Assembly (NCBI RefSeq): GCF_900142435.1
Contig: NZ_LT670846.1
Span: forward strand, 1,302,001 to 1,366,000
Length of the DNA stretch: 64,000 nt
Direction: 5' to 3'
DNA from: Thermocrinis minervae
Lineage (GTDB): Bacteria; Aquificota; Aquificia; Aquificales; Aquificaceae
Part shown: positions 29,019-40,780 of the stretch, one piece after another
Layout of the letters: every line of letters starts with the position of its first letter
Position numbering within the stretch: position 1 is the stretch's first letter
Program-made: the position numbers and the translations under genes
Notes under the pieces: model-generated
Seen by the model: the letters and a program-made list of their open reading frames with translations, nothing else
The model's database searches: none
Told to the model about the DNA's origin: nothing

Positions 29019-29444
29019 CTTTTAACTCCACCAGGAAGATTAGAAACTATTCAATTATGTGACTAAGTATGTTGAGAAAAATGACTTTCAACTCCACCAG
29101 GAAGATTAGAAACCTAACATCAAACTACCAAAGTAAATACTGAAAGCTTGCTTTCAACTCCACCAGGAAGATTAGAAACGATCCTGGTTTCCTTGTCTTT
29201 AAGCATATCAGCCACCTTTCAACTCCACCAGGAAGATTAGAAACATGGCCTAGTTGGTGCGGTGTCTACACACACCTTTACACTTTCAACTCCACCAGGA
29301 AGATTAGAAACGTTCTATATAGGAATTAACGATACTGACGTAATTGAATCTTTCAACTCCACCAGGAAGATTAGAAACAATTTTTAAGTTACATTTAGAA
29401 TTATGAAAAACTTCACTTTCAACTCCACCAGGAAGATTAGAAAC
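29019..29444 (-). CRISPR. CRISPR array 1: 7 repeats, 6 spacers
   Basis: Repeat of 29 bp, on the transcribed (minus) strand GTTTCTAATCTTCC...GTTGAAAG. Copies start at 29019, 29085, 29151, 29216, 29283, 29350 and 29416 with spacers of 36-38 bp. The first copy (29019-29047) has one mismatch and marks the leader-distal end; the leader is on the high-coordinate side. The repeat ends resemble those of type I-B/III systems with an 8-nt crRNA handle GTTGAAAG, but no cas gene is in the window to type it. Spacers are all different; none obviously matches this window. Confidence 0.98.
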
Positions 29445-38092: not shown

Positions 38093-38713
38093 ATGTTTGT
38101 AGAGGACCATCCCTTTGCTCTAGCATACAAACTTGTAAGGGAAGGCAAGCTAGACCCCTGGAAGGTGGACATAGTAGAGTTAGCAAACGCTTACTTAGAT
38201 TACATAAGACAGGCAGAACTTTTGGAGCTTAGCATACCCGCAAGGGCCATACTGGCCGCTTCTTTCCTTCTAAGGAAGAAGATGGAAGTACTCTTCCCAC
38301 CATCCCCCAGAAAAGTAGAGAGAAAAAGACATTACACGCTCCAAGAACTTGTGGAACTCTTTCAGGAGGAGTATCCAGAAGTTATTGAAGAGTCTAAGGA
38401 AGACATGCAAAAAAAACTCAAAAATATCAGAAACTCTACGCATACTCTGGCAGTCAAGGTTCAAAGAAGTCAGAGAAAAGAGAAGCAGGAAAGAGTGGTA
38501 CCCTTACACGTATCTAGCTTTGAAGACGCCCTAAAGGAATTACTTGAAGTCCTAAAAGAAAAGAAGAATGTCTATCTTTCTAACCTTGTAAACGGTAAGA
38601 GTATCGCTCCTTACCTTCTTGCTGCTATGACTCTTTACTATGATGGAAAGATTAACCTCTACCAAGAAAAGCCTTACTCTGACATACTCTTGGAGGTTAC
38701 CGATGGTCAGTAA
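38093..38713 (+). CDS. scpA: Segregation and condensation protein A (kleisin)
   Basis: Kleisin of 206 aa that bridges SMC heads with ScpB in chromosome condensation. The N-terminal SMC-binding segment DHPFALAYKLVREGKLDPWKVDIVELANAYLDYI is typical; the middle is charged (about 70-130); the C-terminal winged helix ends LYYDGKINLYQEKPYSDI. Overlaps ubiE by 11 bp. Confidence 0.88.
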   Translation: MFVEDHPFALAYKLVREGKLDPWKVDIVELANAYLDYIRQAELLELSIPARAILAASFLLRKKMEVLFPPSPRKVERKRHYTLQELVELFQEEYPEVIEESKEDMQKKLKNIRNSTHTLAVKVQRSQRKEKQERVVPLHVSSFEDALKELLEVLKEKKNVYLSNLVNGKSIAPYLLAAMTLYYDGKINLYQEKPYSDILLEVTDGQ

Positions 38714-39359
38714 AAGAGTCATATCCGATGTGTTTAACAAGGTAAGCGAAAAGTACGACATTTTTCTAGATCTAGTAACCCTTGGACTTATAAACAGATG
38801 GCAGAAGACACTGATCTCCATGCTGAGCGAAGAAGGCAACAGATTGGACATAGGAACAGGAACAGGAGAGGTCCTTGTAAAGTCTAACAACAGGGGTCTA
38901 AAGGTAGGCATAGACTTGGCCAAGGGCATGCTAATCAAAGCAAAGAAAAAATGCAAAGAATGCTACTTTGTCCTCGCAGATGCCGAAAACCTGCCCTTCA
39001 AAGAAGGCTCTTTTAACACTATAACCTTGTCTCTTGTTTATCGCCATCTTTTGAACAAAGAGGCTTTCCTTTCAGAAGCTAACAGGGTACTAAAACCAGG
39101 GGGACAGATAGGAATCCTGGACTTGAGTAAGAGCAAGATGACCTATCCCCTTTTTATTCTCTTTAAGTACATACTAAAACCTTTGGGTGTACTGCTTTTT
39201 GGACCTGACAAGTGGGAGTTTTTCGTGCATTCTATAGAAAACAGCTTATCAAAGGAAGAGCTCGCAAGGGAAACGAAAAAGTTTGGTTTTGAGCTTGTAG
39301 ATTACAAGGAAAGCTTTTTTGGACTGGTAATGTTTGCAGTTTTCAAAAAGCCTTCTTAA
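38703..39359 (+). CDS. ubiE: UbiE/MenG-type quinone methyltransferase
   Basis: Class I methyltransferase of 218 aa, likely C-methylating demethylmenaquinone (Aquificaceae use menaquinone-type quinones). Motifs: VFNKVSEKYDIFLDLVTLGL at the N-terminus, LDIGTGTGEVLVK (motif I), LADAENLPFKEGSFNTITLS and a UbiE-like NRVLKPGGQIGILDLSK. ATG 38703 has GGAGG six nt upstream (38692-38696). Its stop codon (TAA 39357-39359) overlaps a decayed CRISPR repeat. Confidence 0.85.
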   Translation: MVSKRVISDVFNKVSEKYDIFLDLVTLGLINRWQKTLISMLSEEGNRLDIGTGTGEVLVKSNNRGLKVGIDLAKGMLIKAKKKCKECYFVLADAENLPFKEGSFNTITLSLVYRHLLNKEAFLSEANRVLKPGGQIGILDLSKSKMTYPLFILFKYILKPLGVLLFGPDKWEFFVHSIENSLSKEELARETKKFGFELVDYKESFFGLVMFAVFKKPS

Positions 39360-39381
39360 CACCACCAGAAAGATTAGAAAT
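39358..39381 (-). repeat. Decayed CRISPR repeat at the stop of ubiE
   Basis: Matches the last 24 bp of the array repeat with three mismatches (positions reading AACACCACCAGAAAG then ATTAGAAAT). The remaining five bases are degraded. It lies 329 bp beyond the first full repeat of array 2 and is probably the true leader-distal end of an older array 2. Confidence 0.8.
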
Positions 39382-39387
39382 CCAGCT

Positions 39388-39687
39388 TCATGACCAAAAC
39401 CACTTCCATATGTCTAGCAGGATGCGAATAATGCGCTTAAGGATACCAAATATGACTTCTAGCACTTTTACTAGGAATTCTGCTATGGTGTCGATAACGG
39501 TGTTAAACAGGAAACCGAGCAAAATGTAAATAGCGAAACTTGCAAACACAACGAGAAAAACGAGGAAGGGAAGGAGTAGGATCTCAAAAGGGGAAGGCCA
39601 ATCTACGGAGTGCTTCTTTAGCTTCACCAGTAAGTAGAGAACCATGAAAGCTAGAAGGTAATACTTCCAAGACCCATCTCTATCCAT
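39388..39687 (-). CDS. Small membrane protein encoded inside the distal end of CRISPR array 2
   Basis: Protein of 99 aa, family not recognised. The ATG at 39687 follows AAGGGGGC 7 nt upstream. Two hydrophobic segments (about residues 7-22, YYLLAFMVLYLLVKL; 34-60, FEILLLPFLVFLVVFASFAI) are followed by a long amphipathic, basic, Trp-rich helix (IFGILKRIIRILLDIWKWFW). No cysteines. It lies between the decayed repeat (39358-39381) and a partial plus full repeat (39702-39739), in the same orientation as the pre-crRNA, so leader transcription would read through it. It might be a host gene captured by array growth, or a membrane-active effector or toxin; neither can be told from sequence. Confidence 0.6.
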   Translation of the reverse strand: MDRDGSWKYYLLAFMVLYLLVKLKKHSVDWPSPFEILLLPFLVFLVVFASFAIYILLGFLFNTVIDTIAEFLVKVLEVIFGILKRIIRILLDIWKWFWS

Positions 39688-39701
39688 TGCTCTGCCCCCT
39701 T

Positions 39702-39710
39702 CTTTCAACT
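39702..39710 (-). repeat. Partial tandem copy of the CRISPR repeat end
   Basis: CTTTCAACT, the first nine bases of the repeat (plus strand), is repeated directly before the full repeat at 39711, as if a repeat had been cut or slipped at the boundary with the membrane-protein gene. Confidence 0.75.
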
Positions 39711-40203
39711 CTTTCAACTCCACCAGGAAGATTAGAAACATGCTTGTGTAGTCTCCTGCAAAGATGCGCAGCTTGTCCTTTCAACTCCACCAGGAAGATT
39801 AGAAACGCATATTGCGACTGTGTTTGATGATTTCGATGAAGCAGCTTTCAACTCCACCAGGAAGATTAGAAACATTTTCCACTCAAAGAACTCAAGATAG
39901 AAGCATCAGGCTTTCAACTCCACCAGGAAGATTAGAAACCACACCACGCTTAGACCTTCTTCCTGAACTTTTTCCCTTTCAACTCCACCAGGAAGATTAG
40001 AAACGAAATGCCGCAACTGGGGCATCGCGGATATGATGTGCTTTCAACTCCACCAGGAAGATTAGAAACCAGTCCTACGATTGGATCAAGGCCAAGCCAG
40101 ATGCTCCGCTTTCAACTCCACCAGGAAGATTAGAAACACCCTAACAAGAAATACATAAACGCGGAGACAGGTACCTTTCAACTCCACCAGGAAGATTAGA
40201 AAC
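39711..40203 (-). CRISPR. CRISPR array 2: 8 repeats, 7 spacers
   Basis: Same 29-bp repeat as array 1, all eight copies identical: starts at 39711, 39778, 39845, 39911, 39976, 40041, 40109 and 40175; spacers 36-39 bp, all different from each other and from array 1. Leader on the high-coordinate side, so spacers near 40174 are the youngest. A decayed ninth repeat stands at 39358-39381 beyond the membrane-protein gene. Confidence 0.98.
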
Positions 40204-40594
40204 CTCAACTTTACCTATCTATCTATTATACACACTTCAAAGATTTTGTCAAGGGGGTACCCCCTTCAAGTGAAGGTGCATTTCCGGAAACCGCCAGTGG
40301 GCCAGAGGGACCCTCAAAAATAACACTTTCACCCTCCTAAAGTCATTGAGTATCAAGCCTCAGAAATGCATAAACGTGAGAAATCCAGATATCTAAAAAT
40401 TTAAAAATAAAGACTCTCCATACCCTTCACAAGTCCTTGATTTTCAAGCTTTTTAAAAGATACACGTCAGTTTTAGACACCCATAAGGTCAAAAAGTGCA
40501 AAAATTGCGTTTTTCCAAAAGTATTCCCAAAAGTACCCCTACAAAACCCTTGTACTACAAATACCAGAAAGGCAAGAAATCAAAGAGCAGTTTT
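40204..40594 (-). repeat. CRISPR leader, copy B (391 bp, duplicated)
   Basis: Near-identical partner of 29445-29835 (14 differences in 391 bp, all transitions, no gaps). The match ends abruptly at 40594, after which the sequence is unrelated. The long identity beyond the promoter suggests a recent duplication of the leader-array unit or gene conversion between leaders. Confidence 0.9.
40225..40266 (-). promoter_or_regulatory. Array 2 leader promoter with 16-bp palindrome
   Basis: Minus strand TTGACA (40247-40252), 16-bp spacer, TATAAT (40225-40230). The perfect palindrome AAGGGGGTACCCCCTT (40251-40266) overlaps the first two bases of the -35. Same layout as array 1, where the palindrome is 12 bp. 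Confidence 0.8.
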
Positions 40595-40595
40595 A

Positions 40596-40633
40596 TTGAG
40601 CCTAAAAAATATACATTTACAATTTTTGCTCAA
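40596..40633. repeat. Inverted repeat at the outer edge of leader B
   Basis: TTGAGC (40596-40601) and GCTCAA (40628-40633) with inner complementary A/T runs (AAAAAT / ATTTTT) allow a 12-bp bulged hairpin. It begins two bases after the duplicated leader ends; it is absent at the matching place after copy A. Confidence 0.45.
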
Positions 40634-40780
40634 GGCACCTCATTTATCTTATTGATTCTAAAGGGTTCTAGATGTCAAGGTTAAAAAAGTTATCCTTTAC
40701 AATTGTGTGGAAGGAAAGCTTTGGCAAGCGCCCGTTCTACTGTAATCCTTTTCACGATCCCAGTGCTGGCCTATTATACT
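40634..40780 (+). promoter_or_regulatory. lysS upstream region with -10 box
   Basis: Unique sequence. TTCACG (40751-40756), 18-bp spacer, TATACT (40775-40780), then 8 nt to the lysS ATG with no Shine-Dalgarno. A frame open upstream of lysS has no ribosome-binding site and no family-like sequence. Nothing else seen. Confidence 0.5.

Follow-up and report, generated by a model that had tools for sequence, protein, structure and literature searches.

An orphan 99-codon frame at the leader-distal end of a CRISPR array of Thermocrinis minervae

In the complete 1.37-Mb chromosome of T. minervae, the last spacer of one CRISPR array is replaced by a 329-nt insert, which lies between the last intact repeat and a decayed terminal repeat and carries a 99-codon open frame without homologs above noise in the collections searched. 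We favor, at about even chances, the explanation that this is a captured or otherwise lineage-restricted orphan frame in the oldest unit of the array, passively transcribed from the leader. No role in immunity is claimed for it. Window positions refer to the whole analyzed stretch of 64,000 nt (positions 1,302,001 to 1,366,000 of contig NZ_LT670846.1); array 2 of the window is array E of the genome (1341711-1342203, window 39711-40203).

Structure of the distal end of array 2

The features are listed in Table 1. On the minus strand, the last full repeat (39739-39711) is followed by the second AGTTGAAAG copy, 14 nt, the ATG (about 24 nt from the repeat), 99 codons, the TGA, six bases and the decayed repeat. 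These positions confirm the preliminary description of a gene-sized frame inside the distal end of the array and in its orientation; the gap, given there as 320 bp, measures 329 nt between the last full and the decayed repeat, whereas the 63 ordinary spacers of the genome all measure 36-42 nt. The open frame occupies 300 of the 329 nt. Since the leader and its promoter lie at the high-coordinate side, array 2 is transcribed on the minus strand, the same as the frame.

The decayed repeat is not a chance match, because the only other non-array sites in the 64-kb window with at most ten mismatches to the repeat (31350 and 39615) both have ten. The erosion of the decayed repeat takes in its last 8 nt, a trait that it shares with other terminal repeats in this genome and in relatives, and this argues that it is a genuine old array end. 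The stop codon of the convergent methyltransferase gene falls within it.

Table 1. Features at the distal end of array 2, and the other CRISPR arrays of the genome (window positions unless marked as genome)
Feature	Position	Strand	Remarks
CRISPR array 2	39711..40203	-	8 intact 29-nt repeats GTTTCTAATCTTCCTGGTGGAGTTGAAAG and 7 spacers of 36-39 nt
Leader of array 2, length approximate	40204..40650	-	near-identical leader upstream of all 5 genome arrays
Leader promoter TTGACA-16-TATAAT	40252-40225	-	12/12 consensus
Tandem duplication, AGTTGAAAG twice	39702..39719	-	3' end of last full repeat, 9 bp
329-nt insert replacing last spacer	39382..39710	-	
99-codon open frame, ATG to TGA, predicted small hydrophobic protein, orphan	39388..39687	-	
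Weak in-frame repeat-like stretch, possible repeat fossil	39615..39643	-	19/29; codon-shuffle P about 0.01
Second, weaker in-frame repeat-like stretch	39539..39567	-	16/29
Decayed leader-distal terminal repeat ATTTCTAATCTTTCTGGTGGTGTTAAGAA	39353..39381	-	23/29 identical, 6 mismatches
Class I SAM methyltransferase-like gene, convergent neighbor	38709..39359	+	conserved in family
Array A	558147-559446 (genome)		
Array B	790704-791793 (genome)		
Array C	977304-978329 (genome)		
Array D	1331019-1331444 (genome), 29019-29444		

Other arrays and the genes behind them

All five arrays of the genome have one repeat type (GTTTCTAATCTTCCTGGTGGAGTTGAAAG in the sense orientation) and leaders that are nearly identical over ~400 bp, each with the TTGACA-16-TATAAT promoter immediately before the first repeat. 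The other four arrays step from repeat to repeat by 65-71 nt throughout, and the stretches read outside these arrays contained no array-oriented repeat with nine or fewer mismatches. The steps at 20 array ends of five related genera range from 64 to 79 nt, save one of 135 nt. None of the 24 other arrays examined (four of this genome, 20 of relatives) has a gene between repeats, and the 358-nt step carrying a frame is unique among the 25 arrays.

Genes directly behind arrays are frequent. A same-strand gene starts within about 30-80 nt behind arrays B, C and D, and in relatives this arrangement was seen in 12 of 17 clear cases, some genes beginning 27-66 nt past the last repeat (loci L103, L106, L108-L110, L114-L118, L120 and L121). 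With arrays B, C, D and E counted as same-strand and A as convergent, same-strand genes make up 16 of the 22 clear cases; a two-sided binomial test against an even split gives P of about 0.05. Leader read-through into downstream genes is thus probably routine here, judging from gene order, and leader-driven expression of ordinary genes in the family looks open to test. Arrays in the family sometimes occupy the 5' untranslated region of a gene (L108, L120).

Array 2 and the frame had been proposed to form one RNA. The shared orientation, the consensus leader promoter and the lack of room for a promoter of its own speak for this: no promoter was found upstream of the frame, the sole promoter-like site nearby being inside it, and, because the ATG lies 24 nt past a repeat, read-through from the leader or from a spacer would be the only route of transcription. 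However, same-strand genes behind arrays are common in the family, so the argument does not single out this frame.

Several further observations concern the arrays themselves. The first 29 bases of one spacer are identical between arrays A and E, and arrays B and C have an identical 39-nt spacer in common; together with the near-identical leaders this hints at array duplication or repeated acquisition. In leader-distal repeats the 3' half contains short tandem duplications, close to where Cas6 is expected to cut: GTGGAGT twice (L055:6419-6454), AGTTGAAAG twice (window 39702-39719) and a similar one in the terminal repeat of L113. The repeat is stop-free in several frames, which gives long open frames with repeated FLIFLVELK within arrays (window 29019-29444; L056:4205-5294), and gene callers may annotate them.

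Search for homologs

The comparison sets comprised 64 genomes of the family, in which this genome is the sole member of its genus, and 136 of the phylum. The predicted protein had no homolog above noise in its own genome, in the family or phylum genomes, or in GTDB genome contigs, viral contigs, phages and plasmids. Profile libraries (Pfam, NCBIfam, PHROGs and PADLOC) gave no match above noise, Rfam gave none, and the product found no match in a viral structure library. At the nucleotide level, the insert has no relative in its own genome or in 63 family genomes beyond short chance matches. Next to the relatives' copies of the neighboring methyltransferase gene other sequence follows, with no counterpart of the small frame; a search of GTDB contigs for close relatives by means of this methyltransferase returned a single protein, 29% identical. 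Viral contigs searched with the repeat, the leader core and those spacers that recur in a second array yielded no source virus or relative. The earlier statement that no described family fits is thus borne out across the profile, protein and structure collections searched.

Nothing in PDB rose above noise; a weak hit there was to SecE (E = 0.017), with a V.WPS..E stretch ahead of a membrane helix. Kinship with SecE was rejected: a profile of 31 SecE proteins of the family scores the frame at -2.0, with 264 of 1000 shuffles as good, and PF00584 misses the frame in its own genome at E up to 1, the host's own SecE being elsewhere.

Coding potential and predicted protein

The frame likely codes for a protein, on mixed evidence: its length exceeds chance, and its synonymous codon usage is atypical. 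When the same 300 bp were shuffled, an ATG frame of at least 99 codons, in any frame, arose 0.04% of the time. The synonymous codon score is -0.045 versus a host mean of 0.134 (sd 0.052), under all 159 host gene chunks, and the synonymous choice resembles wrong frames, no better. With stop codons ignored, the codon score of the frame falls inside the range of host genes, at the 10th percentile of their chunks, with 4.9% of spurious open stretches scoring equal or higher. The ribosome-binding site claimed in the preliminary description proved ordinary: AAGGGGG upstream of the frame has four consecutive bases matching the anti-Shine-Dalgarno sequence, as have about one third of all ATGs on the plus strand of the window.

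One strong transmembrane stretch is predicted at about residues 31-62 (Kyte-Doolittle mean up to 2.7). Of the two hydrophobic helices described earlier only this one held up well, the first being weaker with a peak of just 1.24, while the amphipathic C-terminal helix agrees with a calculated hydrophobic moment of about 0.7. The AlphaFold model of the 99-aa product has helices at 6-28 and 33-98 with a mean pLDDT of 88, helices from a single sequence being an easy prediction.

Since wrong frames score at least as well in synonymous usage, the frame might be no gene and the insert non-coding or decayed DNA that stayed open for 99 codons by accident. The stop-free codon score reached by some spurious stretches, the ordinary Shine-Dalgarno score and the absence of homologs from all collections searched are consistent with this. 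We nevertheless consider it fairly unlikely, given the rarity of such a length among shuffles, the codon score inside the host gene range, the filling of nearly the whole insert and the coherent membrane-protein pattern with its confidently, if easily, predicted helices.

Repeat-like stretches inside the frame

Two stretches of the frame resemble the repeat. The intact repeat in the register of the frame reads FLIFLVELK, and the internal stretches read VLYLLVKLK and FLVFLVVFA in the same register. The pair has a joint codon-shuffle P of about 0.003-0.006, and none of the 269 overlapping windows taken from host membrane genes equals the repeat likeness of the frame. This is a weak hint that the frame contains decayed repeats. 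The frame might then have been born within the array by fusion of decayed repeat-spacer units, its hydrophobic segments descending from the repeat. However, the likeness was noticed post hoc, the matches reach just 19/29 and 16/29, a likeness to this repeat is to be expected of hydrophobic codons in any case, and the spacings (96, 76 and 186 nt) misfit the 65-71 nt array unit; no regular spacing of internal relics was found. We regard such an origin as unlikely, and its fuller version, in which a new gene born from decaying units uses the leader promoter to make a small membrane protein, as somewhat less likely still.

CRISPR coupling and the cas locus

The preliminary description had suggested a CRISPR-coupled membrane effector or toxin. 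In a fuller form of this reading, the protein would be made only when the array is transcribed and processed and would act on the membrane as an abortive or addiction device. The shared strand with a probable common transcription unit, the predicted hydrophobic helix with a basic amphipathic tail, and the presence in the host of apparently complete type I-B genes and Cas10 are compatible with this. On the other hand, no homolog of the frame was found at any array end, and none of the 20 arrays of relatives has a gene between distal repeats; none of the 63 genome spacers shares an exact run of more than 8 nt with the insert, shuffles averaging 9.9; and PADLOC gave no defense-family match for the frame. 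The frame is distant from the cas loci, with Cas1 (76268-77059 of the genome) far from array 2 within a type I-B locus, and the same-strand genes behind the arrays of relatives include ordinary housekeeping genes. Without a spacer match or a PADLOC match, and with same-direction genes behind arrays common, the proposed functional coupling found no backing; the toxin claim had been a guess from hydrophobicity alone, and nothing was found in its favor. We consider an effector of this kind very unlikely.

The type I-B locus at ~75.8-87.5 kb (L092:8844-19329, L157:1274-1975) encodes Cas2, Cas1, Cas4, Cas3, Cas8b1/Cst1, Cas5, Cas7 and a probable Cas6. It also encodes a SAVED protein matching CalpL (PDB 7qda, E = 3e-29), beside a 282-aa protein and a sigma-70-like protein, and this gene order suggests a Calp protease-sigma cascade. 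The Calp-like genes adjoin the type I-B genes, whereas Cas10 is encoded elsewhere (L158:668-2560). Spacer 4 of array B (L056:4432-4469) matches the start of the host calpL-like gene (L092:17846-17867) exactly over 22 nt; the match is partial (27/38 overall) and lies in the 3' portion of the spacer, at the other end from the seed.

Origin and expression of the frame

The least probable of the readings considered is that array 2 ends at the last full repeat, the frame is simply the next gene and the decayed repeat is left over from an older array or from array-array recombination: the 9-bp duplication does resemble the 7-bp tandem duplication in the last repeat of array A and a similar one in the terminal repeat of one relative, and most family arrays have a gene right behind them, but an independent repeat relic just beyond the gene would be an extra coincidence and the gene is found in none of the relatives.

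The option of a captured gene or old insertion, raised in the preliminary description, stays the best reading. We counted for capture the 23/29 terminal repeat, the orphan status of both DNA and protein, the frame length, the synonymous score, the 12/12 leader promoter, and the relatives' methyltransferase without such a frame after it. Counted against it were the lack of a donor element, of a target-site duplication and of terminal inverted repeats, and the synonymous usage resembling that of wrong frames. Indeed, no transposase, terminal inverted repeats or target-site duplication were found around the insert, the sole short duplication (9 bp) being tandem, not flanking. The codon choice suggests that the frame is foreign or young.

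We infer that foreign or lineage-restricted DNA of 329 nt entered the last spacer, between the last working repeat and the now fossil terminal repeat. The worn state of the terminal repeat suggests that the entry was not very recent. Transcripts of the frame would arise by read-through, starting at the CRISPR leader promoter or inside a spacer, and cleavage of the last repeat by Cas6 would leave an mRNA whose 5' end is the crRNA handle GTTGAAAG, about 30 nt upstream of the ATG. Translation, if it occurs, would yield a small protein in which a single strong membrane helix is combined with an amphipathic tail, as modeled; the frame would then be a protein-coding gene with expression hinging on pre-crRNA transcription and processing. 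If the frame is array-derived, it would represent gene birth inside a CRISPR array. At present it is a single orphan insert in one genome.

Comparison with known systems

CreTA is a type VIII CRISPR-regulated toxin-antitoxin (PMC9458426, PMC8501985); CreT is an RNA under a promoter that Cascade represses by means of a partially matching pseudo-spacer (PMC9458426). The insert is similar in that degenerate CRISPR repeats lie beside what may be a toxin determinant, in a host with type I-B genes, but CreTA has a separate toxin promoter and a matching pseudo-spacer, whereas the insert has neither, and CreTA-like control was rejected for these reasons. With SecE the frame shares the V.WPS..E stretch before a membrane helix, but it fails the SecE profile. 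Like arrays interrupted by inserted DNA, array 2 has foreign-looking DNA between two of its repeats; unlike them, it shows one small frame alone, without a transposase, inverted repeats or a target-site duplication. Among the Aquificaceae relatives, the genes behind arrays are mostly conserved ones and have no repeat beyond them, in contrast to the frame of the insert, yet the frame resembles them in lying on the strand of the array, in starting within tens of nucleotides of it and in its likely read-through from the leader.
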